In this document: piece after piece, positions 7,304 to 54,265 of the stretch
Layout of the letters: the number at the start of each line of letters is the position of its first letter
Numbering within the stretch: position 1 is the first letter of the stretch
From: Vibrio neptunius
GTDB taxonomy: Bacteria; Pseudomonadota; Gammaproteobacteria; Enterobacterales; Vibrionaceae
DNA length: 54,265 nucleotides
Reading direction: 5' to 3'
Assembly: GCF_000967495.1 (NCBI RefSeq)
Contig: NZ_JXXU01000004.1
Location: forward strand, 1-54,265
Translations under genes and position numbers: made by a program
The notes under the pieces: generated by a model
What the model saw: only the letters and a program-made list of their open reading frames with translations
Told to the model about the DNA's origin: nothing
Database searches by the model: none

Positions 7304-7326
7304 ACCCGTCTAGTTTATTTCAACGA

Positions 7327-39175: not shown

Positions 39176-39225
39176 TTAGGTTGTTGATCACAGAGAACCA
39201 AGTTGGAAACTAACTTGAAAACAAA

Positions 39226-39249
39226 AGGCGAACCATTTGGTTCGCCTTA
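39226..39249 (+). terminator. Rho-independent terminator of gcvP
   Basis: Stem aaggcgaacc / ggttcgcctt with an ATTT loop, followed by AATTTT. Confidence 0.9.
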
Positions 39250-39355
39250 ATTTTAAGGGATGACTGGTTTAAAAAAGCAAACGCCCAAGCCCTTCCTAAA
39301 CTGAGTTTGCAACTCTGCTTTCAACACAACTTTGCTGTCCGGAATTATTAAACCA

Positions 39356-39928
39356 CTACAAGTCGAAATGCCCCATTTTATGAGCCTTTGTTTTTAGATA
39401 ACCCTCATTAAAAACATTTGCCTTATGAAGAGTTGGAATTCTGTCAGCGACATGGATCCCAAGGCTCTTCAGTGCATTTACTTTCAACGGGTTGTTTGTG
39501 ATCAGGTCGACCTCTATGACACCCAAGAAAGTTAATACTTCAGCAACGTCATCATAAACTCGACTGTCTTGCTCCAAGCCCAGTTCATGATTGGCCTCAA
39601 CCGTATCTAACCCCGACTCCTGAAGCTTGTAAGCTTTAATTTTGTTCGTTAAACCAATACCTCGGCCTTCTTGCGGCAGATACACGACAATTCCTGACCC
39701 TTCCGCAATCATTTGTAAGGCGGAATCTAGTTGCTGAGAACAATCACACTTCAATGAACCAAATAGCTCCGATGTGGCACAAGCAGAATGCATTCTCAGG
39801 CTAACTTTTTCGCCTGAAACGTTGTTTGTTGCAACCATTAGCTCTTCATAGTTACTGGTTTTGAAAACAGATAGGGATAAGACACCCCATTTTGTAGGTA
39901 GCTTTGTAGATGCTTTCAGTTCGACCAT
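39356..39928 (-). CDS. ribA: GTP cyclohydrolase II in the peptide/WD40 operon
   Basis: 190 residues. Zinc cysteines C50, C61 and C63 (SACATSELFGSLKCDC), then YLPQEGRGIGLTNKIKAY and DDVAEVL...TNNPLKVNAL, all needed for opening GTP to the diaminopyrimidine used for riboflavin. All catalytic features look intact. It is the last gene of a seven-gene operon (9-nt gap to the WD40 gene), not next to other rib genes, so it is probably a pathway-specific copy that feeds a pyrimidine, pterin or flavin-like building block. Toxoflavin clusters use such a copy (ToxB). Whether a housekeeping ribA exists elsewhere cannot be seen. Confidence 0.92.
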   Translation of the reverse strand: MVELKASTKLPTKWGVLSLSVFKTSNYEELMVATNNVSGEKVSLRMHSACATSELFGSLKCDCSQQLDSALQMIAEGSGIVVYLPQEGRGIGLTNKIKAYKLQESGLDTVEANHELGLEQDSRVYDDVAEVLTFLGVIEVDLITNNPLKVNALKSLGIHVADRIPTLHKANVFNEGYLKTKAHKMGHFDL

Positions 39929-39937
39929 AACTACCCC

Positions 39938-41620
39938 TTAAATTTCAACTTTGTATAGATTGCCGTCATATGAACTGGCATAAAAAGCTTGCTCAGACTC
40001 ACTCCAATCGAGAGATGAAATACCCCAGTTCGTAAGTCTAGTTGGTTTGTTTAACCAACAACCATTTTGAAGGTCATATATATCTACAAAGCCAGTGTAG
40101 CTTCCTGTTGCGATATATGTTCCGGCACCGTTGGACGCTATACATTTTATTGAGTTTAAATGACGAGATGGAACCCTTAGGATTAAGCCATCAACACCCC
40201 ATAACCCCAGATGAAGATCTCTGGAGATTGTGGCAAATCCGTCTCTGAATGGAGCGCAGTCGTTGAGGATTCCCTCGTGAGCACCCTCGATTTTCTTCTT
40301 GATATCGAAGTCATGAATATCTAGAACAGAAAGCTCTCCATCGGCACAACCAGAGAACACAAAGTCACCATCAAACGAAATTCCTTTAATTGCGTTCTCA
40401 TGGACTTGAACCTCTTTGATTTTGCTTAGCTTACCGGATGGCTCTTTATCAAAGATGTACATCTTGCCCGAATAAGTACCTACAACAAGCTTGTCTCGAA
40501 CGACTACAGCGCAGTTGATCGGTGAATCTGTGAAGTGCAAATCTGACGGATGACTAACATTGAACAGTTGGCACCCTTGACCTCCGGCGTATAGGTCGCC
40601 ATTAAAATCTACCACGGTATTACATAGGGAATTTACATTGGCAACCTCTTGATTATTTTTATAAATAACACCTGAGTCACCAACAGAATAAATGTCTTCT
40701 CCAGACACATGAACAGCATTCAAGCTTGATGACGGAGTGATGTCGTAATCAGACCACTGCTCTTTCTCAAGGTCAAATATCAAGAAACAAGATCCAAAAG
40801 TACCCACAACCAAAGTTGTTTCATTTAAAAATGAAACAGATCGAGGCCATGCGATTTGTGGCAATTTGGTGCGTGAAATTGCAGATATTGTAAAATCTGA
40901 CTCTAGATACCAGTAAGCCAATGTTCCGTCATATGAGGTACTAACAAACTTTGTTCCGGCTTTATTTACTACAATGCTTTTTACGGCACTTTCATGAGCC
41001 GCAAATGAATACTTCTGCTCGTTCGACATAAGTGTAATGAAGCCATCATTGTCACCAAACAAGCGGTCACCATTCATCAAGTATGCTATCGCATCGACAT
41101 CAGTGTTCGAGTCATCTTTGATACCGACTTGAGAGCCACTATGAGCACACCATGTCCGGATTGTCCCATCGGTGCCAACTGAAGTTACGTTTTTGTCGTT
41201 GGCGCTCCATGCAAAGCTTTCTACCAAACCCTGATGGCCGTGCATTTCACACTGCTTTTCGCCAGCAAGAGTATGAACCGACAAGCTCCCGTCATAAGAA
41301 CAAGCTGCTATAAACTCATCGTTGTGACTAAATGACACATCAAGAACGTCATCTTTGTGTGTGGTAATTAATGTGATTAATCGCATCTCTGGAATAGCCC
41401 ATACTCGAATTGAGTAGTCACTGCTTGCTGTCACCAACATTTTTCCATCAGAGGAAAAGTCGCAAGCATTTACCAAGTGGTCGTGGGTGGCTTTTCCAAG
41501 GGCACTCGGATTATTCCCTAACACCTCCCATAGAATCACTTGGTTGTCGTATCCGCATGTAGCAACAAGCTTATTCTCTAGAGTTGCTACACCACTAATC
41601 GGCGCACTGTGTTTTAGCAT
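39938..41620 (-). CDS. WD40 beta-propeller protein
   Basis: 560 residues made of repeated WD40 blades from end to end (for example GYDNQVILWE, SSDYSIRVWAI, SYDGSLSVHTL, GTDGTIRTWC, TSYDGTLAYWYL, GCADGELSVLDI, GSYTGFVDIYDL, SYDGNLYKVEI), enough for two seven-blade propellers. No signal peptide, span or enzymatic domain. Likely a cytoplasmic scaffold or binding platform. It sits 9 nt after the SUMF1-type gene and 9 nt before ribA. WD-repeat proteins of unknown role occur in toxoflavin clusters (ToxC), which is the closest parallel I know. Confidence 0.88.
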   Translation of the reverse strand: MLKHSAPISGVATLENKLVATCGYDNQVILWEVLGNNPSALGKATHDHLVNACDFSSDGKMLVTASSDYSIRVWAIPEMRLITLITTHKDDVLDVSFSHNDEFIAACSYDGSLSVHTLAGEKQCEMHGHQGLVESFAWSANDKNVTSVGTDGTIRTWCAHSGSQVGIKDDSNTDVDAIAYLMNGDRLFGDNDGFITLMSNEQKYSFAAHESAVKSIVVNKAGTKFVSTSYDGTLAYWYLESDFTISAISRTKLPQIAWPRSVSFLNETTLVVGTFGSCFLIFDLEKEQWSDYDITPSSSLNAVHVSGEDIYSVGDSGVIYKNNQEVANVNSLCNTVVDFNGDLYAGGQGCQLFNVSHPSDLHFTDSPINCAVVVRDKLVVGTYSGKMYIFDKEPSGKLSKIKEVQVHENAIKGISFDGDFVFSGCADGELSVLDIHDFDIKKKIEGAHEGILNDCAPFRDGFATISRDLHLGLWGVDGLILRVPSRHLNSIKCIASNGAGTYIATGSYTGFVDIYDLQNGCWLNKPTRLTNWGISSLDWSESEQAFYASSYDGNLYKVEI

Positions 41621-41629
41621 AATATGTCC

Positions 41630-42631
41630 TTATATAGTTCTTGCTAAGCGAAAGCCCATTGCAAAAATATCGCGATCAAACTTAGGGAATTTTCCATGCC
41701 TTCTAGGCGTTCTTGCTAAGTCTGCGAATCGAGCAAAACTACCACCTCTAGCTACTCGATACTCATCTGTGTTCTCGTTGAGGTGATCTACTTGAAGTTC
41801 GCCGCCATCGTAAGGCTTGTAATTACATGCCACGTATTCTTCGACATTTCCCGCCATATCATGGACTTCAAACTGGGAACAACCGTTCGGGAAAATACCA
41901 ACTGGTGTAGTTTGATAGATCTGAGTCTCAACCGTATTTGTCCGTGTAGCCTCAAAGGCACCACCCCAAGGGAACTGTAGATGATCAACACCAGATGCCG
42001 CCGCCTCCCATTCCGCCTCTGTTGGCAGTCGGTATCCAGCGCCAGTCTTGTCATTTAACCAAGAAATGTAAGCATCAATCGCTTCAAGCGACACGGTATG
42101 AACAGGGTGATTTGCTTTTTCGATTGGGTAAATACCAAGAGGCCATGAAGACGGAAGTTCAGGGAATCCTGTTTCTAACAAAAACTCTCTATATTCTTGG
42201 TTTGTAACCGGATACTTAGCAATCTCAAAAGCATCAATCTGCTGATCATGCTGAGGAACTTCCTTCATGATCCAAGCAATCTCAACCCCAACCGACTCGT
42301 AATCTTCAGTTACCTTTTTAGCTTCTTCTTTTGAAACGCCAATTTGATACACCCCATATGGGATCTTGACCATTGCTGGCTGAGTCGCAATCAGTCGTGG
42401 GTCTCCATATAAACCTAATAAGCTTGCTGCTGCGTACCGAGTTTCTAGAGGCTGAGATGATTGGCAAAAAATCGATATTAGCTCTTCATTGGTGGCTGCT
42501 CGTAATTTTGAGAACTGTTCGCAGTTAGAGGCGAATTTGTTATCCACATATGATTCAGGCAGCCCCATTGCTTCTCGGTCTGTCATTTCAGTCTGACATG
42601 CTTTTGGGGAAGAGATAGTTGCATTACTCAT
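41630..42631 (-). CDS. SUMF1/FGE-fold protein (PvdO/ToxD-like)
   Basis: 333 residues. An about 85-residue helical N-terminal part precedes the SUMF1 domain (about 87-333): MVKIPYGVYQIG, FEIAKYPVTNQEYREFL, NHPVHTVSLEAIDAYISWLN, YRLPTEAEWEAAASG, EVHDMAGNVEEY, RVARGGSF and GFRLAR. The cysteine pair that binds copper in true formylglycine-generating enzymes is absent: the stretch after GGSF is ARFADLARTPRRHG. So it is not a sulfatase activator; related domains in EgtB, PvdO and ToxD carry out other oxidations or binding tasks. It is adjacent to the FMN reductase gene (1-nt gap) in the operon. Confidence 0.87.
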   Translation of the reverse strand: MSNATISSPKACQTEMTDREAMGLPESYVDNKFASNCEQFSKLRAATNEELISIFCQSSQPLETRYAAASLLGLYGDPRLIATQPAMVKIPYGVYQIGVSKEEAKKVTEDYESVGVEIAWIMKEVPQHDQQIDAFEIAKYPVTNQEYREFLLETGFPELPSSWPLGIYPIEKANHPVHTVSLEAIDAYISWLNDKTGAGYRLPTEAEWEAAASGVDHLQFPWGGAFEATRTNTVETQIYQTTPVGIFPNGCSQFEVHDMAGNVEEYVACNYKPYDGGELQVDHLNENTDEYRVARGGSFARFADLARTPRRHGKFPKFDRDIFAMGFRLARTI

Positions 42632-42632
42632 A

Positions 42633-43214
42633 TTAAGACTCCCCGAACTTGAACTTAGGGTTCATCACACGCTCATCTTCACGCAATGGCTTCATGCACT
42701 CTGCATAAGCAAATAGCATGTTTGTGTGATGCTCTAGTCGCTCTAGACTCAAACACTCTTCTGGAGCTTTATCATCATCAATACCACGAACAATGATATG
42801 GTCTGGAATGAAACACATGTGGTTATTTTTATAGCCAGTGGCTCGAAGTTCGTGCACAGGGTTTGTGCCACCTTTGCCAGCAGAAACAGATACTATCAAG
42901 CATGGCTTATGCCCAATCTCAGTCCCGCTACATAGAAGCAAGAAGTTCTTAAGGGCTGGAGGCACCATCCCCGCCCACTCCGGTGCTATCAAAACCAATG
43001 CATCAGCATTCTGTAGAGTAGCTGCCACATCATCCCAGAAATCCCACTGATCTGTACCATCCCAGAACCCTTCATTCCACATTGGAATGTTCAACTCTGC
43101 CAAATCGAGAATCGTTGCTTCATGGCTTGAGCCAATTGATTTCTTAATATACTGCGCAATAGCAGAACTTTTTGAACCTTCTCTGTGACTTCCAGATACG
43201 ATTACGGTATTCAT
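42633..43214 (-). CDS. NADPH-dependent FMN reductase-like flavoprotein
   Basis: 193 residues, flavodoxin-like fold: VIVSGSHREGSKSSAIAQYI (FMN phosphate loop), LNIPMWNEGFW, ADALVLIAPEWAGMVPPALKNFLLLC and PCLIVSVSAGKGG. The family reduces FMN, quinones or other small molecules with NAD(P)H. Between the MFS exporter (2-nt gap) and the SUMF1-type gene it likely supplies reduced flavin or a redox step for the product of the operon. Substrate unknown. Confidence 0.85.
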   Translation of the reverse strand: MNTVIVSGSHREGSKSSAIAQYIKKSIGSSHEATILDLAELNIPMWNEGFWDGTDQWDFWDDVAATLQNADALVLIAPEWAGMVPPALKNFLLLCSGTEIGHKPCLIVSVSAGKGGTNPVHELRATGYKNNHMCFIPDHIIVRGIDDDKAPEECLSLERLEHHTNMLFAYAECMKPLREDERVMNPKFKFGES

Positions 43215-43216
43215 TA

Positions 43217-44410
43217 TTATGCCTCCTTGCTAAAAATGGCCTTAGACTTCTTAAACTCCACCATCACCATTAAGGCGACTAGAGAAATCACCAACGTGAT
43301 CACGTACAAATTGAATGAGATTTCAAACTTAATAAGACTCAACAGAACTAGAGAGATAAGTGTCCTGAGGATGTAAATGACAGCTTGAATGACTGAGAAA
43401 TATTGCCCGATCTGATGTTGAGCCACTTGCTTCATTACTACCGTGTTGTATGAAACCTTACAAATTGCATTAGTCGCACCCCAAACGAAGGAGGCAACAA
43501 TTACAGCGATCTCACCACCAACAACGGTTGCCAAAAACCCAGCCCCAAGAGACAAAGCCAGCGCCAGAGCAACAATCGTATTGATTGGATACATTTTGGA
43601 TAACTTGGGAAATGCTGAAGCCCCCACCATTGCCGAAATTGTGTAGACAACGCTAATTGTTGCGATGATTGAAATATCAGATAGCTGAACACCGTTGAAG
43701 TAGACTGGATTTATGATGTTTGTCGCCATCACAATTAAAAACGGCGCATTCACAGCCACCCCGAAGAAAATTAGAGGTTTGTAAGTCGAGATTATTGTTT
43801 GAACGCTCTGTTTCTCTTTCTGTATAGGCTCTGCTTTATCACCTGTTTTCACTTTTGAGGTGAAGCATAACAATACGGCGACTGCCGCTAAAACTAACGC
43901 AATGGAACAAAAAATGATTGTTTGAGAAAAGTCTCCTTCAGTAAGGAAGGTAATCGTAATAACAGATGACAGCAGCGTGGCTAGCTGTGTCTCAAACTCC
44001 ATCAGAGAATTAACATTATTGCGCTCATCTTCAGAAAAACGCTCTTGAATGAAAGCCCCACGAACATTGTAGTAGAGCATGAAGAATAGCTGAGTAAAGC
44101 CGAAGTAGGCCATTAGAATCAATGCTTTATGAAGGCCGCTATCTATCGCTGTTCCCGCTGCATAGAGGGCAACACCCATGAAAAGCAATAACGAAAACAT
44201 GAAGTTTTTTCGAGAGTATGAGTCGATGAACTTCCCTGCAAACGGGGAGGCAAAGGCAAGTAGAACGGTAGTGATCAGAGAAGCGCTAACAAGCACCTCT
44301 CCAGTACCATCAATCGATACGATGCTCCACGGAATAACTATCAGCGAAACACCAATTGCTACCGATGCAACAAAGTTGAAGAAAACAAATATCAGGATTT
44401 TAGATGTCAT
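43217..44410 (-). CDS. MFS transporter, probable exporter of the operon product
   Basis: 397 residues with about twelve spans. The first loop holds ASPFAGKFIDSYSRKNFMF (motif A type) and the central loop (about 200-215) is charged. It overlaps the upstream WD40 gene by 11 nt and almost touches the next gene, so it is an integral part of the operon. As MFS proteins in such operons usually do, it probably exports the final product and gives self-protection; this is inference. Confidence 0.87.
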   Translation of the reverse strand: MTSKILIFVFFNFVASVAIGVSLIVIPWSIVSIDGTGEVLVSASLITTVLLAFASPFAGKFIDSYSRKNFMFSLLLFMGVALYAAGTAIDSGLHKALILMAYFGFTQLFFMLYYNVRGAFIQERFSEDERNNVNSLMEFETQLATLLSSVITITFLTEGDFSQTIIFCSIALVLAAVAVLLCFTSKVKTGDKAEPIQKEKQSVQTIISTYKPLIFFGVAVNAPFLIVMATNIINPVYFNGVQLSDISIIATISVVYTISAMVGASAFPKLSKMYPINTIVALALALSLGAGFLATVVGGEIAVIVASFVWGATNAICKVSYNTVVMKQVAQHQIGQYFSVIQAVIYILRTLISLVLLSLIKFEISFNLYVITLVISLVALMVMVEFKKSKAIFSKEA

Positions 44411-46217
44411 CTTTATACCACTCTATACTTGTAGATAGTAGTTGGTCGCAATCAATCCGATACGACATAGCACAACCGCTTCTTCCTAGAATGGTGAATG
44501 AATTTTCGCTAGTAATAACAATGGACTTCATGTATTCCGAACCATAGAAGCTTGAATCCAATAACTCCCCTGTACGGGTATCTGCCAGCCATAGTCGATT
44601 GGCATACGTTATCATGACCATATAGCCACCCCACACAACAAAGTCTTCAACAGTGTTGCTAGATGGATCTATGAAGCGGTGAGAATGGTTCCATTGCTCA
44701 TTTTCAAAGTAAATCTTGTCCACTGAATCACTGTAAGTGCAATAAAGCGTGTTGTTATCAACCCACTTCATTCGCTTCGGAAGCCTAGAGAAAGTTTGTT
44801 CTATGATCTTTCCAGACTCTACGTCCATCAGATAGATTTGCCCCATCCTTTCGCCAAAAGCGAGAATGTCGCCTGCGGGATTTAGCGCAAGTGACCATAT
44901 AGGCTCTTCGGACTGCCACAAGGTGCGAATCTTACCTGAAGCGAACGCAGCCAGACGACCATCCTCAAGGCATAAAAAATACGTATTCGAATCATCCGAG
45001 TAACATATGTCTCGAACCGGACTACCAACATCAATTATTTCTTGCCCGTTAGATCCATTGAGTACGAAGTGCCCTTTTGTAGACCCTGCGGCAAATTCAC
45101 TCTCATTGCGTATGCACAATCTCTTAAAGTAGCCACCTTTAAGGTCTACGTTGCAAGTTTTGACGAAATGAAGGTCTCCGTTAGCGTGAGGCTTTTCGAT
45201 GTTAATAATGGCACCCTCTTCGCCGACTGCGAGAAAACGACCATCCGAAAGCTTTTCACAAGACCAGATTGTAGGAGGCATTTCATGAAACTTTCTCAGA
45301 ACTTCGCCTGTTTCGATATTGATTTTTTGCAAGCTACCGTTTCTTACTTGCAGCAATATTACATCCGGCTCACTGCGGTGATAATCGATCCAACGAAGTT
45401 TATATTCGGCCTCGTAGCATACCCCGATATTCTGAAGAGTATCTATGTCGACTTTGTATACGTGTCGGTCAAAGCTGGTGGCAAGGGCGTATGTTTCACC
45501 TTGCTTATAGGTAACATGCTCCAAGTCATCTCTGGTAAAAGAATCCCCTTGAGCAGTCGATAGCTTGAGTGTTTCTGGATCTACTGCTGCCGATACAATC
45601 TTTCTGGCATCACACGCAATTACAAAGAAATTTTCAGAAACTTCCTCGAACCAGTGCATAGACTCAGCAATTCCTTCTGGAATAACGTTGTCGACCACCT
45701 TGTAATTGCTAACAACAGTAATCTCACCATGGTTGCCGCCGACCATTAGATATGAGCCACACTTACTGTATTTAACGGTAATTATGTCGGACTCATGCAG
45801 ACGTAAGCAGTGAGTTTGATTCCCCTCAAAATCCATAAATACGAGAGAGCTATTACCAGCCCTTGTCGCAATTTCATTTTTAGTTGGGGAAATATCCACC
45901 GCTTGAGATACGCTGTGGATTGCAGGGAAATCATCTAGGCCGAGGTCTCTTGTACATATGTACGATAATTTTTCGAGACTGGCGGGGTTTGAGTTGTATT
46001 TGAAAAGAGAAACGTGGCGGTCACCACCAACAAGAGCAACAAGCTTCCTCTTTTCACAAATTGAGATACCCTCGACAGCACCAAAGTGCGCCTGAATAGA
46101 GCAGACCATTTTTAAATCTTGGTCTTCCAGCATTAGCAAGCGTCCATTCTTGCACGCAGCAAAAACAATTCCAATTTGACTGGCATAAGCCGTGGTGTAG
46201 ATGCTATCTGAGTACAT
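44400..46217 (-). CDS. Large WD40 beta-propeller protein
   Basis: 605 residues, beta-propeller repeats throughout (GRLLMLEDQDLKMVCSIQAHFGAVEGISI, GGNHGEITVVSN, TSFDRHVYKVD, GSLQKINIETGEVLRKF, GQIYLMDVESGKIIEQ, LADTRTGELLDSS), probably two propellers. The repeats are more diverged than in the 560-residue protein. No enzymatic motif, no signal peptide. It is the first large gene after the IRANK peptide and hairpin, with an AGGA site upstream. Two propeller proteins in one operon suggest a scaffold that holds the peptide or other enzymes; inferred. Confidence 0.83.
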   Translation of the reverse strand: MYSDSIYTTAYASQIGIVFAACKNGRLLMLEDQDLKMVCSIQAHFGAVEGISICEKRKLVALVGGDRHVSLFKYNSNPASLEKLSYICTRDLGLDDFPAIHSVSQAVDISPTKNEIATRAGNSSLVFMDFEGNQTHCLRLHESDIITVKYSKCGSYLMVGGNHGEITVVSNYKVVDNVIPEGIAESMHWFEEVSENFFVIACDARKIVSAAVDPETLKLSTAQGDSFTRDDLEHVTYKQGETYALATSFDRHVYKVDIDTLQNIGVCYEAEYKLRWIDYHRSEPDVILLQVRNGSLQKINIETGEVLRKFHEMPPTIWSCEKLSDGRFLAVGEEGAIINIEKPHANGDLHFVKTCNVDLKGGYFKRLCIRNESEFAAGSTKGHFVLNGSNGQEIIDVGSPVRDICYSDDSNTYFLCLEDGRLAAFASGKIRTLWQSEEPIWSLALNPAGDILAFGERMGQIYLMDVESGKIIEQTFSRLPKRMKWVDNNTLYCTYSDSVDKIYFENEQWNHSHRFIDPSSNTVEDFVVWGGYMVMITYANRLWLADTRTGELLDSSFYGSEYMKSIVITSENSFTILGRSGCAMSYRIDCDQLLSTSIEWYKDDI

Positions 46218-46250
46218 ACTTCATCCTGAAATATTAAAAAACTGTTTAAA

Positions 46251-46278
46251 TTAGCTAGGGTGAAACCACCCTAGCTAA
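46251..46278 (-). terminator. Terminator-like hairpin between peptide gene and enzyme genes
   Basis: Perfect 12-bp stem (TTAGCTAGGGTG / CACCCTAGCTAA) with a 4-base loop, starting 9 nt after the peptide stop. On the minus strand it is followed by TT, seven mixed bases and then six T, so probably a leaky terminator that raises the peptide-to-enzyme ratio; it may also protect the short mRNA. Confidence 0.75.
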
Positions 46279-46287
46279 AAGGCTTAC

Positions 46288-46380
46288 TTACTTGTTTGCA
46301 CGAATCTTATTTGCACGGATCTTGTTAGCTCGGATAGCGCCTTTTTGCTCACCTTTCTGATTTGGGATGATTACTTTCAT
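46288..46380 (-). CDS. 30-residue peptide with three IRANK repeats, candidate precursor or scaffold peptide
   Basis: ATG at 46380 with AAGGAG six bases upstream, the best ribosome site in the neighbourhood; stop TAA at 46288-46290. The peptide has a 15-residue front part (MKVIIPNQKGEQKGA) and then IRANK three times up to the stop. The three repeats use different synonymous codons (ATC CGA GCT AAC AAG, ATC CGT GCA AAT AAG, ATT CGT GCA AAC AAG), so selection acts on the protein, not on DNA repetition. It is the first gene of the operon with WD40, MFS, FMN reductase, SUMF1, WD40 and GTP cyclohydrolase II genes, separated by a leaky-terminator-like hairpin. This is the layout of a leader-core RiPP precursor. 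Alternatives are a regulatory leader or a carrier peptide. Not a known family to me. Confidence 0.78.
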   Translation of the reverse strand: MKVIIPNQKGEQKGAIRANKIRANKIRANK

Positions 46381-46902
46381 GTTTATCTCCTTGAAATGAA
46401 TTTAATAATCAAGCACGCTTCGTTGCGTGCAAACTTTTTATATCAAACCGATTACATATAAACTAACCTTGCGGTAAGATAATTAAAGTTTGTTCACAAA
46501 ATTAAATATTTATTAACATTTGAGATTTTATTGGTTTGAAAGATAAATATTTGTGGTGATATAAATATCGGTTGCTTTTGGTGTGGGTGGGTTAAGATTT
46601 TGTTTTTTATGCTCTATTGTGAGCCTTATCTTTCTACGAAGTGGGGCCTGCAAGTCCTTATATTGACATTATTAGGGGATGAATTCAGGACACACACCCA
46701 TCATTAGTGGCGAAGGCTCTTTGGCAATAGAATAATATCTGCGCCTAACGCATACCTATGGGTTGGGGAAATGATTAGGGGTTCTGCCCGTGCCTTACTA
46801 ACAGGCGATAAAGTGATCACACCCAACCTGAACATTGTGCCATAAAATCAGTTATGAACTCGCCATATGTCAGGAGTCCCTGTTTAGTAATTTTTTATGC
46901 TT
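46381..46902. promoter_or_regulatory. Upstream region of the peptide operon and repeat remnant
   Basis: About 520 bases without a gene. The first 120 are the operon's leader and promoter zone: an inverted repeat gcacgc / gcgtgc at 46413-46430 and very AT-rich sequence beyond. From about 46600 the composition changes, with a GATGAATTCAGGACACACACC repeat (46678-46698) marking the start of the cassette and repeat region. No regulator gene is adjacent. Confidence 0.5.
46678..46698. repeat. GAATTCAGGACACACACC repeat, copy 1
   Basis: GATGAATTCAGGACACACACC; near-identical strings occur at 51227, 51582 and 53108. The shared part ends abruptly, so these are remnants or ends of a dispersed element. 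Confidence 0.7.
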
Positions 46903-47427
46903 TTACTTTCGAATGAGACCGAGTAGATCAGTACAATACGAATTGTCACCACTTTGACTAATTAGGGTTGTCACTTGACCTCGATGATGAGTTTGGTGAT
47001 TAAAAAAGTGCAGTAACACCGATGCGAAGGGTTCTGAAAACTCCTTACCTGAAGAGTTTTGATAAACCACATTAGAATCAAATTCAGTATCACTAATGGA
47101 ACTTATCCAGTCAGCAATTACAGCATCTAATTTACCACGACTTGCACGCAATTCATCTAGAGTCTCGAAGCAATGCGTACTAATAGAAGTTGGATGAGGA
47201 AACTCATTCAGACTTTCATTCAAGTCATAGGAACTCTGAACATTGGTAAATCGATGTAACCACATCAAGTCGCAAGTAAAAATATGACTCATCGTTTTGA
47301 AAGCTGAGCCCCAAAACGCGCCTTTTTCCTCGTAAATATCAAGGTCGACTCCCTCATTTAAATGCGAGAGTAATGACTCATTCATCCATTGATTGTACTC
47401 AGACATTAGAATAAATTGCTGTTTCAT
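46903..47427 (-). CDS. DinB-family protein
   Basis: 174 residues from the ATG at 47427, preceded by AGGAAC; the longer frame to 47517 is rejected. A four-helix DinB fold with the metal-binding histidines: H48 in MSHIFTCDLMWLHR and the HFFNHQTHHRGQ segment near residue 141. DinB proteins include metal-dependent thiol transferases and the N-terminal domain of EgtB/OvoA. Here it is a stand-alone protein upstream of the SUMF1-containing operon but separated by 520 bases with repeats, so it may simply be a cassette gene. Confidence 0.82.
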   Translation of the reverse strand: MKQQFILMSEYNQWMNESLLSHLNEGVDLDIYEEKGAFWGSAFKTMSHIFTCDLMWLHRFTNVQSSYDLNESLNEFPHPTSISTHCFETLDELRASRGKLDAVIADWISSISDTEFDSNVVYQNSSGKEFSEPFASVLLHFFNHQTHHRGQVTTLISQSGDNSYCTDLLGLIRK

Positions 47428-47663
47428 CTGTGTTGTTCCTAATTCAACATAATGCCATGCTGTTACGCATCTCCTCAGAATTTTAATATAAACAATGAGT
47501 GGACGCGCGACGTTCAAATTCTACAGCCAAACTCTTGAGCATCAATACCCCGACATTCAAAAAAACGGCTTAGTTATCTGGTAATTGCCACTTAAGTATC
47601 ATTGATACTGCAGACCAGAAGCGCTACCAGTTGGCTATCGGTTTGAGGCTACCGTTAGCTTAA

Positions 47664-48369: not shown

Positions 48370-48456
48370 AGCGGAACCCCTCATAATCTTCCCAAACCAA
48401 CGATAAAGTGAAAATCCTAAGCGTTGGGATTCCTTCTTGAACGCTTTCATATCAGC
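48370..48456 (-). repeat. Degenerate attC (integron recombination) site
   Basis: Read on the minus strand it runs AAGCGTTCAAGAAGGAATC, CCAACGCTT, TTTTCACTTTATCGTTGG, then a poor right end (GGGTTCCGCTAG instead of GGCGTTAG). The order matches the better site at 50604-50729. It follows the stop of the 48460-48975 gene by a few bases, as cassette sites do. Confidence 0.6.
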
Positions 48457-48459
48457 CAA

Positions 48460-48975
48460 TTACTTCACAGACTTGCGCATTTCATCTAATAACTTAAGGG
48501 ACGCTTGGTAAAGTAACACTTCCATATCCTGATTGTTATATAAAGATCCAAAGCGAAACAGCCCTCTAATGCTAAATAATCTTGAGATAAATTCTCGCCA
48601 TGTAATTGACTGAGATACTTTAAAGGTCTTAATCGTCTTACCTGATTTCAAATGGTATAAGCGGGATACTAGTTTTATTTTAGGTCGCCAAAATATTGGT
48701 ATGCTACCTGGCCCCCATCCTATAGCAAAGGCATCACCACCATGTAGAGTAACAATGACAACGTCCAACCCAATGTCGGACGACTTGGTTTCTTGAATAG
48801 ACGTTATGCTAGTAAGGCAAAAGATATCTTCTAATTTACAGCGCATATGGTCTTGCAGCGAGCTACCACTGAAAGAAAAGAAGCGTTCAATTTTTGATAA
48901 ATTATCTTCAGACACTACAGCCAAAGAGCCCAAATATACATTAGGCTTATCTGATTTGAACCAGTCAAAAAGCAA
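48460..48975 (-). CDS. Hypothetical cassette protein
   Basis: 171 residues, cytoplasmic, no signal peptide. Contains a beta-rich middle (VVIVTLHGGDAFAIGWGPGSIPIFWRP) and a helical, basic C-terminus. I do not recognise it. It is bounded by an attC-like site on each side (48370-48456 after its stop, 48993-49117 before its start), i.e. a complete gene cassette. Confidence 0.62.
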   Translation of the reverse strand: MLFDWFKSDKPNVYLGSLAVVSEDNLSKIERFFSFSGSSLQDHMRCKLEDIFCLTSITSIQETKSSDIGLDVVIVTLHGGDAFAIGWGPGSIPIFWRPKIKLVSRLYHLKSGKTIKTFKVSQSITWREFISRLFSIRGLFRFGSLYNNQDMEVLLYQASLKLLDEMRKSVK

Positions 48976-48992
48976 ACTAAATCTCCTTTTAG

Positions 48993-49117
48993 CTTATAAC
49001 GCTAACTTAAACCGCAGACAACGCACAAACAAAACCGCTGAATTACGCCTTAAACACTAAACTGACTTGAAGTGAAAGCACCAAGCGTTGTGAATCACTC
49101 TTAAATCTTGTTATGAG
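48993..49117 (-). repeat. attC site
   Basis: About 125 bases with attC ends: CATAACAAG at one end and GTTAGCGTTATAAGC at the other (minus strand), with CACAACGC / GTGCGTTGT inner boxes. Imperfect self-complementarity over the whole length. The 49120 repeat begins directly beside it. Confidence 0.7.
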
Positions 49118-49119
49118 TC

Positions 49120-49136
49120 TAATTGGGACAGACACC
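49120..49136. repeat. TAATTGGGACAGACACC repeat, copy 1
   Basis: Exactly repeated at 52152-52168. Here it abuts an attC end, followed by ACCCCAATAAGAGATCCTCA; the string GAGATCCTCAATATGTGTT recurs at 52211. Confidence 0.75.
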
Positions 49137-49169
49137 ATAACAACCCCAATAAGAGATCCTCAATATGTG

Positions 49170-49484
49170 TTAGCCGCTCATTCCCAGCTTGCTCAATAGG
49201 AACTTACGCAAGTCTCTCTCAGAACGCCTAACAAACAGAATAACTACTTTGTCGCCGTCTTGTTTATAGAAAATACGGCACGGACTAACTACAACTTCAC
49301 GATAACTTAGATGTTCTAGTTCAAGCGGAATGCGACCCGATTCAGGGGAAGCCTCTAAGCGCTCGACTTTAGAAAAGATCGCTTGAACCAATTCTTTTGC
49401 AGCTGCGATATTTTCAAGTGCGATGTATTCAGCGATATCATTGAGGTCAGATAGCGCTGGCTCAGTCCAGATTATTTCAGCCAT
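49170..49484 (-). CDS. RelE/ParE-family toxin
   Basis: 104 residues: MAEIIWTEPALSDLNDIAEYIALEN opening helix-strand, SGRIPLELEHLSYREVVVSPCRIFYKQ and VVILFVRRSERDL, the ParE/RelE signature order. It overlaps the antitoxin gene by 13 nt. ParE members poison gyrase, RelE members cut mRNA on ribosomes; the sequence is closer to ParE in layout. Cargo of the cassette region, where such modules stabilise arrays. Confidence 0.88.
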   Translation of the reverse strand: MAEIIWTEPALSDLNDIAEYIALENIAAAKELVQAIFSKVERLEASPESGRIPLELEHLSYREVVVSPCRIFYKQDGDKVVILFVRRSERDLRKFLLSKLGMSG

Positions 49485-49729
49485 TTTGACATTTTGTCCT
49501 TGGCTTCATCGTGACTCACCACTTTACCGTCAGCTAATGCACGTTCACCTCGTGCAATCCCCTCAAGAATCGCCAAACGATTTTGCATAAACTCGTAATC
49601 ATCAACATCAACCAGATATGCCGATGGCTTACCATGTTCGGTAATTAACACTGGTTCTTTAGTTTCGTGGAGATCGGCAAGGATTTTTGTTGCTTGGCGC
49701 TTGAGTGATGTAACGAGTTCTACTTTCAT
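49472..49729 (-). CDS. Phd/YefM-family antitoxin
   Basis: 85 residues. N-terminal Phd fold VTSLKRQATKILADLHETKEPVLITEHGKPSAYLVDVDDYEFM binds DNA; the C-terminal helical part (GERALADGKVVSHDEAKDKMSKWL) binds the toxin encoded directly downstream. Gene order antitoxin then toxin with overlap is usual; autoregulation expected. Confidence 0.9.
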   Translation of the reverse strand: MKVELVTSLKRQATKILADLHETKEPVLITEHGKPSAYLVDVDDYEFMQNRLAILEGIARGERALADGKVVSHDEAKDKMSKWLK

Positions 49730-49796
49730 GAGAGCTGCTCTAAAGGAATACTAAAGTGATACTATTCTATCACTTTGAGTATAGCAATCTCCATGA

Positions 49797-49922
49797 CGGC
49801 TAACATTCTTGATAACAGGCAGCCTCATTTTCTCTCTACCTGCTTTCTAGTCGATAACTTTGTTGTTCGAAAAGCATTGGCTGATCACGCAGCCAATAGG
49901 AATTATTGCCTATTGACAGGCA
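49797..49922. repeat. Two fused dispersed repeats (families A and B)
   Basis: 49801-49840 (ttcttgataacaggcagcc...ctctctacc) matches the left end of the repeats at 52982 and 53627. 49849-49922 (gataactttgttgtt...gcctattgacaggcagaaggc) matches 52273-52350 over about 75 bases. So the sequence is a join of two elements. Confidence 0.65.
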
Positions 49923-49995
49923 GAAGGCTCATTTGTGTCATAAGCGTGATTAGGAGTAGTGTTCCATCAATATCTAGCATTACATGATGTTTCAT
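49903..49995 (-). pseudogene. Truncated HAD-hydrolase gene
   Basis: ATG at 49995 with AAAGGA upstream opens MKHHVMLDIDGTLL, the HAD motif I (DIDGTL), but within 20 codons the frame runs into repeat family B (the gcctattgacaggc string) and stops at 49903 after 30 residues. No cap or later motifs are left. A GTTATAAG attC-like end precedes it. A remnant of a cassette gene cut by a repeat. Confidence 0.65.
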
Positions 49996-50033
49996 TTTAG
50001 TCCTTTTAAACTTATAACATTTTTATTAGTTGG

Positions 50034-50591
50034 CTATTCCCAAGGCTTCACGGTAATGTCAGGCCAACGCTTACGATAGCCATCAACCATTTGGTTGTAG
50101 CTTTCGCGCGTCATGGCAATGGGGTTTGGCTTTACCCGTTTATTGAATGCATCAGTTAGCCCATAAGGCGAGTAAATACGCATTGTACCGTTTGAATTTA
50201 ACCTAAATCCGATCGCAAATGCAGATAACCAAGAATCAATGCCATGCTCTGCTTTTGTATATGCAGATATAGTTTGGCCACACCTATGAGGGTACCATTC
50301 ATGAACACGTGCTTGGTTTACCACATCAATTGGGATTTTATGGTTCACGACACTGTTAATTCGGCTGCTGTAGCTTTCTTCATTAGATGTACTAGCGATA
50401 TCGAAGTAAATAATATCGAAGTCCTTAACATTCTTGAGTGGACTTTCACCTGATAGTGAGTTCCAAATCAATTGTGTGACTGAACCTCCAGCAATATAGT
50501 AATCAGGTAATCCAACCTCAATGCATGCTTGTGCAGTTTCCATTAGCTCAGGAGTATTTCTAATTAACTTTTCTAGTTGACGTTCTAACAT
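50034..50591 (-). CDS. Nucleotidyltransferase family protein (DUF925/COG3575 type)
   Basis: 185 residues from the ATG at 50591, preceded by GGGGG; the extension to 50651 would lie in an attC site and is rejected. Motifs: PDYYIAGGSVTQLIWN, NVKDFDIIYFD (paired acidic residues of nucleotidyltransferases), VNQARVHEWYP, SPYGLTDAFN. Function of this family is not established. Its start is 17 bases from the GGGCGTTAG end of an attC, as in typical cassettes. Confidence 0.82.
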   Translation of the reverse strand: MLERQLEKLIRNTPELMETAQACIEVGLPDYYIAGGSVTQLIWNSLSGESPLKNVKDFDIIYFDIASTSNEESYSSRINSVVNHKIPIDVVNQARVHEWYPHRCGQTISAYTKAEHGIDSWLSAFAIGFRLNSNGTMRIYSPYGLTDAFNKRVKPNPIAMTRESYNQMVDGYRKRWPDITVKPWE

Positions 50592-50603
50592 GTTCCCCCA
50601 GTT

Positions 50604-50729
50604 AACTAACGCCCTGTAGGGGTAAGCAACGCAATACAAAAGCCGCCGCATACCACCTTAATCACTTAAATCAACGCATAGTGAAAATGCCACGCGCACC
50701 AAGTCCTTCTTCAACGCTTTATTAGCTGT
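50604..50729 (-). repeat. attC site (best preserved in the window)
   Basis: On the minus strand: AACAGCTAATAAAGCGTTGA at the left, CGCGTGGCATTTTCACTATG and TGCGTTGATTTAAGTG in the middle, GTATGCGGCGGC and CAGGGCGTTAGTTA at the right. This is the vibrio superintegron attC style, about 126 bases. It lies between the stop of the GFA gene (50730) and the start of the nucleotidyltransferase gene. Confidence 0.82.
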
Positions 50730-51143
50730 TTACCCTTCAGCTTCAAAATGAGCAAACACTTCAGCACCAGTCATATTCTGAGTTTCGTTTTTGAAATCAT
50801 AATATTCGGGCTTCTCATCAACAAATATTTGATGAGTAAACTGAAAATGGTCTTCGCCTTGAAGTAAGCCAACTGGCAGGTGGTACTGATTTGCAGGCTT
50901 AAGGTAATAAAACAGATGTGTTCCACACTTATTGCAAAACCCTCTGTCTGCCCACTCTGAGGATGCGTATCTTGTGATACTTTCTTCACCTGTTATTTGT
51001 ACTGAATCAGCACAATCGATGGCTAGCATTGGACCACCGCCCCAATTGCGACATATGCTACAGTGACATGCCGCCACCTCATTACTAACATATTCAACTT
51101 CTAGTGCGACTGAGCCACATAAACATTTAGCATGACCTTTCAT
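50730..51143 (-). CDS. GFA/CENP-V family protein
   Basis: 137 residues with the zinc cysteines CLCG, CHCSICR and CNKCGTHLF, the signature of glutathione-dependent formaldehyde-activating-like enzymes. The family binds small thiol adducts; most members have no proven substrate. It is a cassette gene: its stop leads directly into attC 50604-50729, and GGCGTTAGCTG lies before its start. Confidence 0.9.
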   Translation of the reverse strand: MKGHAKCLCGSVALEVEYVSNEVAACHCSICRNWGGGPMLAIDCADSVQITGEESITRYASSEWADRGFCNKCGTHLFYYLKPANQYHLPVGLLQGEDHFQFTHQIFVDEKPEYYDFKNETQNMTGAEVFAHFEAEG

Positions 51144-51171
51144 AAATCCTCCAATAACTTATAGGTAGACA

Positions 51172-51256
51172 CTTTTTAACAGCTAACGCCGGGTTCTTAC
51201 GAATCCCTTCATAATTTCTCTATCGATACATTCAGGACACACACCAAAGGGCTTAA
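51172..51256 (-). repeat. Truncated attC joined to the GGACACACACC repeat
   Basis: On the minus strand GAAGGGATTCGTAAGAACCCGGCGTTAGCTG (ends shown only as key boxes GAAGGGATTCG and GGCGTTAG) is a much shortened attC. It is followed at 51227-51245 by ATTCAGGACACACACC and then AAAGGGCTTAATT, which recurs at 53129. Confidence 0.6.
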
Positions 51257-51529
51257 TTACGTAAACGCTGGCTTGCCATATCGAGCAAAACTGCAGAAAT
51301 TGAAATATTCGTCTTCGATTTGTGGCAACCAATCTCTAGTCATTTGGTCAAAGTGAGGGATACAAGTCATTGGATACTTGGCATCGCCATCAATCACCGA
51401 AACCAAAATTTCCCCTAGCTCCCCGGCCAAAATTTCATTGGCAAGTGGATCCTTACATTCGACTAGCGCTCTTTTTAAACAAACCGCAGAATCATAGACC
51501 AAAGATTTTTGCTCAGCGGTGAAATTCAT
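51257..51529 (-). CDS. Small hypothetical cassette protein
   Basis: 90 residues, acidic, helical, cytoplasmic, with LKRALVECKDPLANEILAGELGEILVSVIDGD and a C-terminal FCSFARYGKPAF. I do not recognise it. An AAGGAGAAG site precedes the ATG, and the GCGGCGTTAT end of an attC lies 20 bases further up. Its 3' end touches the GGACACACACC repeat, so the last residues may derive from the junction. Confidence 0.65.
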   Translation of the reverse strand: MNFTAEQKSLVYDSAVCLKRALVECKDPLANEILAGELGEILVSVIDGDAKYPMTCIPHFDQMTRDWLPQIEDEYFNFCSFARYGKPAFT

Positions 51530-51546
51530 AGCTTCTCCTTAATCAC

Positions 51547-51598
51547 ATAACGCCGCGGATGAGCAACGCTAAATTCGACTAAACTCAGGACACACACC
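51547..51598 (-). repeat. attC right half joined to the GGACACACACC repeat
   Basis: AGCGTTGCTCATCCGCGGCG TTAT on the minus strand is the right end of a vibrio attC; the other half is missing and replaced by ACTCAGGACACACACC (51582-51598). Confidence 0.65.
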
Positions 51599-51775
51599 AA
51601 TAGTCTTCTGAACTCACTAAGCACGCCGGACTTCATACCAAAAATGCCGAGTGCAATGCATCACTTTGATTATTACGTATGGTTAACAAGCACTCAAATC
51701 GCACGATTTAATTAAATTAACCATTTTGTGCGACTAGCTATAATCTTACTGTAATTCCAAACTTGGAGATTGAGC

Positions 51776-52018
51776 ATGCAAACACTAACAGCAAATGATG
51801 CTAAACGTAACTTTGGTGAGCTGCTTCTAATCGCTCAACGTGAGCCAGTAAAGATTAGCAAAAACAGTAAAGATGCCGTGGTGGTAATGTCTATCAAAGA
51901 CTATGAAGAACTAGAGGCAATGAAAGCTGATTACCTTAAACATTGTTTCGAGTCAGCTAAACAAGACTTAGCACAAGGCAATGTAGTTGATGGTGAAGAT
52001 TTCCTAAACGCCTTGTAA
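51776..52018 (+). CDS. Phd/YefM-family antitoxin
   Basis: 80 residues from the ATG at 51776, with TTGGAGA upstream. MQTLTANDAKRNFGELLLIAQREPVKISKNSKDAVVVMSIKDYEEL is the DNA-binding Phd fold, the tail binds toxin. The toxin gene directly after it is truncated, so it is an orphan antitoxin now. It lies on the plus strand, opposite to the neighbouring cassettes. Confidence 0.88.
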   Translation: MQTLTANDAKRNFGELLLIAQREPVKISKNSKDAVVVMSIKDYEELEAMKADYLKHCFESAKQDLAQGNVVDGEDFLNAL

Positions 52019-52024
52019 CCCACT

Positions 52025-52180
52025 ATGCAAAAGAATAAGTACAAGCTGAGTAAATTGGCTCAGGCTCATTTACGAAAAATTAAAAGCTATACCATCAACA
52101 ACTTTTCTGAAATGCAGTGGAACAACTATAAAGATACATTGTTAACGAAACTAATTGGGACAGACACCTTAACACTATGA
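52025..52180 (+). pseudogene. ParE-type toxin truncated by a dispersed repeat
   Basis: ATG at 52025, 6 nt after the antitoxin stop, opens MQKNKYKLSKLAQAHLRKIK and on to MQWNNYKDTLLTK, the N-terminal third of a ParE toxin. At about 52150 the coding sequence passes into TAATTGGGACAGACACC and ends at TGA 52178 after 51 codons. The catalytic/gyrase-binding C-terminal part is gone. Confidence 0.8.
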
Positions 52181-52350
52181 CAAGTCATAGGCAGCGGCGA
52201 AGTCGCAACAAGAGATCCTCAATATGTGTTTGTGGTAAGCAATACTTAATGACCGAAATGACAAAGCGAAGTAGATAACTTTGTTGTTTGAAGAGCATTG
52301 GCTGCTCACGCTGCTATTAGGATGTTATTGCCTATTGACAGGCAGAAGGC
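52152..52350. repeat. Mosaic of dispersed repeats
   Basis: TAATTGGGACAGACACC (52152-52168, copy of 49120), GAGATCCTCAATATGTGTT (52211, copy of 49151), and about 75 bases at 52273-52350 matching 49849-49922 (family B, with the inverted gcct...aggc). The 49120 copy looks like a version with the middle part deleted. Confidence 0.7.
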
Positions 52351-52369
52351 CATATGAGTTTTGCTGCTG

Positions 52370-52657
52370 TTACGAGGACCTCGTTGCTAGCTTTTTGTAC
52401 ACTGCATCTTTGTCTCTTTTACCAATAGCCAACACATACACCACGATTTCATCGTCGATCACTTCGTAGGCTAAACGATAACCCGCAGTACGTAGCTTGA
52501 TCTTGTAAACTGAGTCATAGCCGCGAAGTTTAGATGCGGGAACATGCGGATTTTCGAGACGTTCTTTAAGCTTCTTTTTAAACTGACTTTGAATTGGTGG
52601 AGCTAACTTGCTCCACTCTTTCTTCGCGGCAGGTAGAAATTTAAGCTTATAAGTCAT
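52370..52657 (-). CDS. relE: RelE-family toxin
   Basis: 95 residues: MTYKLKFLPAAKKEWSKLAPPIQSQFKKKLKERLENP, SKLRGYDSVYKIKLRTAGYRLAYEV, VVYVLAIGKRDKDAVYKKL. All basic and tyrosine positions typical of ribosome-dependent RelE mRNases (K, R in KLR.AGYRL, Y at the end) are present. Overlaps its antitoxin gene by 11 nt. Confidence 0.92.
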   Translation of the reverse strand: MTYKLKFLPAAKKEWSKLAPPIQSQFKKKLKERLENPHVPASKLRGYDSVYKIKLRTAGYRLAYEVIDDEIVVYVLAIGKRDKDAVYKKLATRSS

Positions 52658-52898
52658 CGATATTTACTTCAACCGCTTCAGATAACTCACCGCGACGACT
52701 TTCAACAAGTTTAGCCAGCTCGTAATCATCGAGCATATCCATCAGAAACTCATAAGTTTCCGCAGGAACAAGATAAGCTGCTGGCTTATTGTGGTTCAGA
52801 ATAGCAATAGCAGAACCATCAGCTTCATTTAGCAAAGCGGTAGGATTTTTCTTTAACTCAGAAATACTTGCTGAATAATCAGCTAAAACCTGTCTCAT
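52647..52898 (-). CDS. relB: RelB/Phd-type antitoxin
   Basis: 83 residues. The N-terminal fold DYSASISELKKNPTALLNEADGSAIAILNHNKPAAYLVPAETYEFLMDML is Phd/YefM-like; the acidic C-terminus (ESRRGELSEAVEVNIDDL) would wrap the RelE toxin. Standard antitoxin-first operon with autoregulation expected. Confidence 0.9.
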   Translation of the reverse strand: MRQVLADYSASISELKKNPTALLNEADGSAIAILNHNKPAAYLVPAETYEFLMDMLDDYELAKLVESRRGELSEAVEVNIDDL

Positions 52899-53251
52899 AA
52901 CAACACCAATTCAGCACTTAAATAAGTGCTAATTTTAGACCTTATTTTCAGTCTAGACCAGAAGTTTCTGATTGTAGATATAACATTTTTAATAACAGGA
53001 AGCCTCGTTTTTCTCTCTACCTAGCTTACCACCAACCTATCATATGTTACTAAAAATTAACGTAAATTTACCAAGCTATACATTCTGTCATTATATAAAT
53101 ACGATCGGATGAATTCAGGACACACACCAAAGGGCTTGATTGCATGTGTGCGAAACATGGTAATACTCAATTCGATGCTAAGAGATGGCGTCGTGTGGGT
53201 TGAGAATACAGCTAAAATTAGCTATTAGTGCTATCGTCGTTTGTTCGCCCT
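52899..53251. repeat. Gene-free stretch with repeat families A and GGACACACACC
   Basis: 52982-53107 is repeat A (taacatttttaataacagg...), about 125 bases similar to 53627-53752. It is joined at 53108-53128 to GATGAATTCAGGACACACACC, then AAAGGGCTTGATT as at 51246. No gene seen. Confidence 0.65.
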
Positions 53252-53599
53252 TTACAACAAAGGAAACCATGGGCTTAAATCCTTTAAGCGATGTCCTTTA
53301 TAGTGTTTAGAGTTAGCGATTGCCTGATAAGAACTAGTTAAACTCACTGTGGCTGGAATAATGAGCAAACAGAGTAGCCACTGAACTGGATCCGAAAAGC
53401 CTAGTACCATTGCCAATAAATTAGCAGAGCATAATACCAAAACGCCCCAATTCCATCTGATCATTGCTCTCTTAAATCTGCAGTATCCTGCCCAATCATA
53501 AACAACCCAGTCATTTGAGAACTCTCCACATTGAGAACACTTTTGGCTAAGAGGAATCGATTCAGATTTTGCATTGCAGTTTGGGCAACATCCTTTCAT
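53252..53599 (-). CDS. Zinc-ribbon membrane protein
   Basis: 115 residues from the ATG at 53599. An N-terminal zinc ribbon (CCPNC...CSQC), a polar linker (DWVVYDWAGYCRFKRAMIRWNW) and two membrane spans (VLVLCSANLLAMVLGF, WLLCLLIIPATVSLTSSY), then a basic tail. The open frame to 53680 runs into repeat A, so those residues are doubtful. Not recognised. Confidence 0.62.
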   Translation of the reverse strand: MKGCCPNCNAKSESIPLSQKCSQCGEFSNDWVVYDWAGYCRFKRAMIRWNWGVLVLCSANLLAMVLGFSDPVQWLLCLLIIPATVSLTSSYQAIANSKHYKGHRLKDLSPWFPLL

Positions 53600-53626
53600 T
53601 ACTACATGTACCTTTTCGAGAGGGCT

Positions 53627-53752
53627 AACATCCTTAACAACAGGCAGTCTGGTTTTCCTCTCTGCCCAACTTATTAGCAAACTATCATAAGTGACTAAAA
53701 ATTAATGTAAATACACAGAACCATACAGCCTATCAATATATAAAAGCGAGCG
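53627..53752. repeat. Repeat family A, second full copy
   Basis: Similar to 52982-53107 over about 125 bases: aacaacaggcagtctgg, ctctctgcc, ctatcata, gactaaaaattaatgtaaat, tatataaa. It contains the upstream region of the zinc-ribbon gene. Confidence 0.65.
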
Positions 53753-53860
53753 TGTGGGTTATCTTAGTAAGAAGAGTAAAAATTCTATTACTAATAATAA
53801 TTTAGAGCGACCACCCTACTCCAAAGCTCAGTGATTCTGTGCCTGCTCGTTGATGGCCAA

Positions 53861-54265
53861 TCAACGCGAGGTGAGAGTTTGCTCTGCCTTAAGCGTTTTC
53901 ACGATGCCGTCTCGCTGACTATCGCTCAATGGAAACCAACGGTTTTTCTGGATCTGCGGTTCAGACAGTACCTCAAGCAATGCATCTGGGCTCAGTTTCG
54001 CCTTCCCGTACGCTACCAGCTCAATCGGCTGTTCACACAAAGACTGCAAACGACAAATACATTGGTCAACGTCTTGGGTAAAACACAAGTTATAGGCATT
54101 TTGGTTCTGCATCTTAATTAAACAGAGATCGGTAGTGTCACAAGATGGGGAGCAGTGCTCGGTAAAGCGATTGAGTTGCGCTTGTCTAATAATTGCTTCG
54201 AGCCAGCTATATTTGGACGTTTGTTTAGGGTCGGGCCCATTGAGGAGCGTCGATAAATCACGCAT
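53861..54265 (-). CDS. Hypothetical protein at the window edge
   Basis: 134 residues visible; the ATG is at the very last bases, so a longer N-terminus cannot be excluded. Polar, cytoplasmic, with CSPSCDTTDLC and CICRLQSLC cysteine groups and QNKNRWFPLSD-like text near the end (exact: QIQKNRWFPLSDSQRDGIVKTL). Not recognised. It lies beyond the last repeat and may be the first gene of the stable chromosome again. Confidence 0.6.
   Translation of the reverse strand: MRDLSTLLNGPDPKQTSKYSWLEAIIRQAQLNRFTEHCSPSCDTTDLCLIKMQNQNAYNLCFTQDVDQCICRLQSLCEQPIELVAYGKAKLSPDALLEVLSEPQIQKNRWFPLSDSQRDGIVKTLKAEQTLTSR

Follow-up and report, generated by a model that had tools for sequence, protein, structure and literature searches.

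A toxoflavin-type operon variant of Vibrio neptunius that likely includes a ribosomal peptide

The gene roles of the toxoflavin cluster toxABCDE are known. Among the ribosomally synthesized and post-translationally modified peptides (RiPPs), some precursors carry repeated cores and others give rise to cofactors, such as PQQ and mycofactocin; in the pearlins, a peptide-scaffold pathway, a small ribosomal peptide serves as the scaffold for a small molecule. In this study, a stretch of 54,265 nucleotides from Vibrio neptunius (contig NZ_JXXU01000004.1), hereafter the window, was analyzed with respect to a 30-residue open reading frame (ORF) that ends in three IRANK repeats and heads an operon of six further genes. 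Judged by its sequence, the operon is a variant of the toxoflavin-type (ToxB/C/D) cluster, and a ribosomal peptide is likely one of its components.

The operon resembles toxABCDE in uniting ToxB-, ToxC- and ToxD-type enzymes, but it has neither a ToxA methyltransferase nor RibD/ToxE, and it adds the peptide ORF, a second WD40 protein, a flavoprotein and a transporter of the major facilitator superfamily (MFS). With the repeated-core and cofactor RiPPs it shares a small ORF as the first gene of a biosynthetic operon, and a leader-linker-core pattern is found in the 86-residue proteins of related clusters described below; it differs in encoding none of the enzymes of the described RiPP classes and in that the modification is putative. 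As in the pearlins, a small ribosomal peptide would be the scaffold, here a putative one, whereas no pearlin-type ligase was found among the scanned products of the window. The pseudoiodinine operon psdABCDEFG also combines a SUMF1 protein, a GTP cyclohydrolase and a WD40 protein, and its seven genes were reported to suffice in P. putida; its own are a single WD40 protein, two methyltransferases, a dioxygenase-family protein and RibD, and the portion of the publication drawn on here mentions no peptide (PMC9911603). In the same portion, PsdC (SUMF1) and PsdE (WD40) were required for pseudoiodinine, PsdE and/or PsdC were proposed to form an N-N bond with glycine, and the N-N bond step of ToxC-/ToxD-type proteins was called unclear (PMC9911603). 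A passage of PMC12154649, citing Song et al. 2023, refers to the proposal that ToxC represents a new family of oxidases making this bond.

The IRANK peptide and the genes behind it

The peptide, read from 46380 to 46288 on the minus strand, is MKVIIPNQKGEQKGAIRANKIRANKIRANK with the stop codon TAA. Its N-terminal part, MKVIIPNQKGEQKGA, is followed by IRANK-IRANK-IRANK up to the stop. The features of the locus are as follows.

46288..46380, minus strand: 30-residue peptide ORF, candidate substrate or precursor (sequence and ORF reading)
46387..46392, minus strand: ribosome-binding site AAGGAG, 6 nt 5' of the ATG (sequence)
46291..46335, minus strand: three tandem 15-nt units encoding IRANK (tandem-array scan and repeat analysis)
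46251..46278, minus strand: 12-bp perfect hairpin between the peptide and WD40-1, -20.3 kcal/mol, z -4.0
44400..46217, minus strand: WD40-1, 605 residues, predicted double propeller, rare family
43217..44410, minus strand: MFS transporter, predicted exporter
42633..43214, minus strand: FMN_red flavoprotein
41630..42631, minus strand: ToxD homologue (SUMF1/FGE fold)
39938..41620, minus strand: WD40-2, 560 residues, ToxC-family protein
39356..39928, minus strand: GTP cyclohydrolase II, ToxB-like
46413..46430, minus strand: GC-rich inverted repeat directly 5' of the ribosome site, resembling a terminator on either strand

The three IRANK units differ at four sites, all of which are third codon positions and synonymous. 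The probability that four randomly placed variable sites all hit third positions was P = 0.0037, and all three copies stayed IRANK in 0.0006 of the trials with simulated random changes. A search of all stop-to-stop frames in the window for three perfect C-terminal copies of a 3-8-residue unit gave this ORF alone, and 20 random windows (1.09 Mb) contained no frame ending in three perfect units of at least four residues. Among the fetched loci (191,547 bases, partly redundant), the sole other frame end with a triple unit was QKLA in the Sphingomonas locus L006, a repeat of low-complexity DNA. Moreover, the IRANK array scored highest (62, the next 42) among the 10 tandem-array rows obtained for the window. 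Because the differences are synonymous only and such frames are rare, the repeat is not due to chance, and the peptide rather than the DNA has been kept; the codon differences among the repeats point to selection at the level of the peptide. A preliminary description of this DNA had claimed a 30-residue ORF with an ideal ribosome site and three C-terminal IRANK repeats, and had taken their synonymous differences as a sign of selection on the peptide. The ORF is present exactly so on the minus strand, and the statistics given above bear out the claim of selection. Elsewhere in its own genome, the peptide had no match except a weak one on contig C22 (E 0.014, two internal stops), which was taken as chance.

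The six genes that follow on the same strand encode, in order, WD40-1, the MFS transporter, FMN_red, the protein of the FGE-sulfatase/SUMF1 fold, WD40-2 and GTP cyclohydrolase II, and they overlap by 11 nt or lie 1-9 nt apart. The gene list of the preliminary description (two WD40 proteins, an exporter, a flavoprotein, a SUMF1-fold protein and GTP cyclohydrolase II) agreed with the domain annotation. Its statement that there were almost no gaps applies to the six downstream genes (-11 to +9 nt) and not to the space between the peptide and WD40-1, which is 70 nt long and holds the hairpin. None of 200 shuffles was as stable as this hairpin. It was not listed by the terminator scan, a T run not following it immediately, and no known RNA family was found in 46000-46900.

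The toxoflavin-type identity of the operon

The SUMF1 protein matched ToxD (PDB 7SPQ) over residues 15-333 with an E value of 1.2e-93, and the next best match was EgtB with 1e-15. An active-site cysteine pair is a requirement for a sulfatase-maturing FGE. No cysteine stood in any column invariant across six SUMF1 proteins, which does not fit this role. WD40-2 belongs to a family of 456 proteins; among the best 120 of the 456, two were named "toxoflavin biosynthesis protein ToxC" by their source. Its identity was 39% to P0107 and 37% to P0127, both carrying this name, and 40% to the ToxC of L023, a second cluster in the same genome. The GTP cyclohydrolase II is ToxB-like and shared 41% identity with its L023 counterpart. 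Neither a ToxA methyltransferase nor a ToxE/RibD deaminase was found among the seven products, and the ToxA and RibD of L023 as queries had no match in the window at 1e-10. The operon being toxoflavin-type, the chemistry available to it is therefore that of the N-N-bond and azapteridine pathways. The earlier reading as a biosynthetic-type operon headed by the ORF was thus supported, while its ToxB/C/D identity had been missed.

The second cluster is a canonical toxoflavin-type one in the same assembly (G000, contig C47, L023:8271-15841), with homologues of ToxA, ToxD, ToxB and ToxC. Its ToxD matched 7SPQ with an E value of 9.7e-87. For its ToxA-type methyltransferase, the best match was 5JDZ (E 4e-105), deposited as "Methyl transferase", which we take to be the Burkholderia ToxA; the E value against 8RDL, deposited as "ToxA protein", was 8e-79. 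By eye, L023 further contains a transporter, a nitroreductase-like gene, a LysR-type regulator and RibD. No WD40-1 or FMN_red match (1e-10) and no IRANK peptide were found in L023, which serves as a control in the same genome, namely a tox cluster without the peptide, WD40-1 and the flavoprotein.

Another genome of the same species, G144, possessed the ToxC of the L023-type cluster at 99% identity, and neither WD40-1 nor the IRANK peptide was found in it. A 13.9-kb stretch of G144 aligned with both flanks of the operon (37739-39261 and 46669-47537), and 39262-46668 was unaligned; the operon and the peptide thus belong to a single block that one strain has and the other lacks. At the operon site, G144 has about 4.3 kb with an ABC-transporter-like gene seemingly interrupted by a transposase-like gene, as seen by eye. 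The region 48400-54000 of the window contains several small gene pairs, toxin-antitoxin-like by eye, with recurring repeats of 25-127 nt between them (families D1-D8), and looks like a cassette array.

WD40-1 clusters and their 86-residue proteins

WD40-1 belongs to a rare family. The large protein search, in which only the candidates with the most shared words were scored, gave 24 proteins, and the closest listed relative (P0001, "unclassified Vibrio") had 93% identity. P0002 and P0003 (Aeromonas veronii) were likewise near relatives. WD40-1 was found in 2 of the 227 genomes of the genus and in only one of 369 genomes drawn evenly from the class, namely its own (1e-20). Among 61 relatives, it was full length only in its own genome, with two weak partial WD40 matches besides, and no match was obtained on plasmids. 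The invariant residues of a 25-row alignment include H188, W189, E191, D203, D230, D231, E233, H234, K273 and W276. The protein is confidently predicted to be an all-beta propeller (predicted local distance difference test score 92.5); the PDB structures matching this model are WD40 propellers in general and are uninformative on function. WD40-1 was also considered as a relative of ToxC and not accepted as such, as the profile match (E 2e-14, 12% identity) may reflect only the common propeller fold.

Scanning the genome contigs with the single WD40-1 sequence gave nothing, and scanning with alignment A1 gave four loci. A fifth locus (in G214) came from the genus search and a sixth (in G896) from a search with the small-protein alignment. 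Seven loci were thus examined: the window, L005 (Nitrosovibrio), L006 (Sphingomonas), L007 (an alphaproteobacterial metagenome-assembled genome), L008, L011 (G214) and L019 (G896). Gene sets were compared by tblastn at 1e-10, and the loci were cut about 10 kb on either side or at contig ends, so that gene absences are local. WD40-1, FMN_red and ToxC occurred together in all seven. ToxD was present in six (not seen in L007) and ToxB in four (the window, L005, L007 and L011). The simplest form was that of Nitrosovibrio, in which the small protein, WD40-1, ToxD, ToxB, ToxC and FMN_red make up one colinear set.

A small ORF lies directly upstream of WD40-1 in five of the seven loci (the window, L005, L006, L007 and L019). 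In L005, L006 and L007, the gene adjoining WD40-1 on the 5' side encodes a protein of 86-88 residues and has a purine-rich ribosome site. The small ORF of L019 shows a frame change near residue 71; this locus was found through the small protein and is therefore not independent. L008 could not be assessed, its contig starting about 100 bp before WD40-1, and the first 70 residues of the protein were found elsewhere in its genome. A hairpin 3' of the small gene was also found in L006 (z -5.3, 0 of 200 shuffles as stable) and in L007 (z -2.3, 2 of 200). Beside the small-protein gene of the alphaproteobacteria, proteins of about 700 residues with two O-methyltransferase-like halves are encoded at L006:7259-9364, L007:7211-9364 and L019 ~6583-8424, recognized by Pfam in L006 and L007 and by tblastn in L019.

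A database search with the small protein of L006 gave 28 proteins including itself. With a profile, members were found in 3 of 397 genomes of the family of G618, 1 of 125 of the family of G617 and 1 of 43 of the order of G619, the starting genomes being included in these counts. In the 30-row alignment, the mean column entropy was 1.51 bits at residues 1-41, 0.35 at 42-62 (LNDAEFRYVMQTLFNEQ...), 1.95 at 63-75 and 0.70 at 76-86. The tail at 76-86 is LAHGFTIRAVI, and the conserved C-terminal HGFTIRxxI ends at the stop; G79 and F80 are invariant, and position 83 is R in 28 rows and K in 2. The structure model consists of three helices and a less certain tail, and searches of Pfam, NCBIfam and the PDB folds yielded nothing significant. 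With its helices, variable linker and conserved C-terminus, the protein has the apparent anatomy of a precursor or a carrier. The arrangement of a RiPP precursor or carrier peptide proposed in the preliminary description is supported in so far as a precursor-like small ORF occupies the same position in three distant loci; the similarity of the 86-residue proteins to the window peptide is not significant. IRANK-like units in varying number, which had been expected among relatives, were not found; each 86-residue protein instead bears a single conserved tail, and IRANK is missing from it.

Possible roles of the small protein

The best reading of the operon is a module of peptide, WD40-1 and flavoprotein joined to ToxB/C/D chemistry. 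Within it, we tentatively favor, short of calling it probable, the view that the peptide is a ribosomal substrate of the operon enzymes, similar to a RiPP precursor, to which a GTP-derived pyrimidine would be attached before export. It is favored by the Tox homologies, the joint occurrence of WD40-1, FMN_red and ToxC, the small ORFs 5' of WD40-1 with their hairpins, the anatomy of the 86-residue family, the synonymous-only differences between the repeats, the need for PsdC and PsdE in pseudoiodinine formation, and the lack of both WD40-1 and the peptide in the canonical cluster L023. ToxB would make a diaminopyrimidine from GTP, and the small protein would sit on WD40-1 with its tail presented. 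ToxC and ToxD would then act on the peptide held by WD40-1 instead of on glycine, forming the N-N bond with the flavoprotein as redox partner. The modification site would most likely be a basic core residue, that is, the R of IRANK or the R/K in HGFTIR; an alternative site in the 86-residue proteins might be the invariant Gly, as the counterpart of the free glycine in the known pathway. Each IRANK would be one core, so that one peptide could give three products. The hairpin might keep the peptide in excess over the enzymes, and the MFS protein would export the product.

Several results weigh against the peptide as a substrate. It scored 9.25 against the core profile of the 86-residue family, with 91 of 1000 shuffles as good, and shuffles were as good in 291 of 1000 cases against the tail and in 253 of 500 against the whole. 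Homology was rejected as not significant by these shuffles, and what links the two is therefore the position that they share, the operon type and the hairpin. The peptide and the 86-residue tail have I-R-A after a Gly in common, which is suggestive only, and the IRANK units are without the Gly that is invariant in those tails. The hairpin of L005 is only weakly supported (z -1.8, 13 of 200 shuffles as stable). In addition, the peptide was present in 1 of the 227 genomes of its genus, and no small ORF was found upstream of WD40-1 in G214, the other genome of the genus with this gene. In this locus (L011, G214:C2:1641000-1660000), a transposase-like ORF lies 263 bp before WD40-1 and the MFS gene is split in two frames; the cluster may be decaying. 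Furthermore, when all seven products were scanned against Pfam and NCBIfam, neither a protease nor any enzyme belonging to a described RiPP class came up. Within the 86-residue family, conservation is stronger in the helical part (0.35 bit) than in the tail (0.70 bit), which would also fit a docking protein.

The strongest rival, although rather unlikely in our estimate, is a small protein that is not consumed and acts as a docking subunit or reusable carrier for ToxC/ToxD and WD40-1, or as a shuttle for an intermediate, the product being a small molecule. The high conservation of residues 42-62, the binding surfaces provided by two propellers and the lack of a protease among the operon products agree with this role. 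However, the 30-residue peptide is too short to have such a helical part. A modified core would account no less well for its three perfect repeats and for the free tail conserved among the relatives. It is improbable that the peptide is an unrelated cationic one, for instance a bacteriocin or a regulator, which came to lie on the transcript by accident of acquisition. Its want of sequence kinship with the small proteins of other clusters and its occurrence in one genome only of the 227 would agree with an accident, but the operon and the peptide are missing as one block from G144, and the position and the hairpin are the same as in other WD40-1 clusters.

A regulatory leader peptide, in which ribosome movement over the repeats would govern the downstream hairpin by attenuation, would explain why a short ORF stands immediately before a stable hairpin. 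We nevertheless give it little chance: there is no antiterminator signal, pairing of the 5' arm of the hairpin with upstream sequence was matched by 103 of 300 shuffles, the repeated codons span five amino acids, and other lineages have a conserved 86-residue protein at the same place. Equally doubtful is an ORF that is untranslated or without function; its absence from the other genomes of the genus (1 of 227) would be expected on this view, whereas the ideal ribosome site and the synonymous-only divergence of the repeats would not. The unrelated peptide and the untranslated ORF explain less.

No report of a ribosomal peptide in a toxoflavin-type cluster was found in the titles and abstract beginnings of the literature searched, a weak negative with most subscription journals outside the search. 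Should the peptide be a substrate, the chemistry of ribosomal peptides would come to include N-N bonds. Ribosomal products of a new class, in which ToxC/ToxD chemistry would link a GTP-derived pyrimidine to peptide-core residues through N-N bonds, are conceivable but unlikely on present evidence. Were this so, an azapteridine-like heterocycle would arise on the peptide itself, at three cores in the present case and at one in each 86-residue precursor of alpha- and betaproteobacteria. A ToxC/ToxD-type branch that travels with a ribosomal small protein would also offer a gene-encoded, taggable candidate substrate, and the step could be tracked by protein mass spectrometry.
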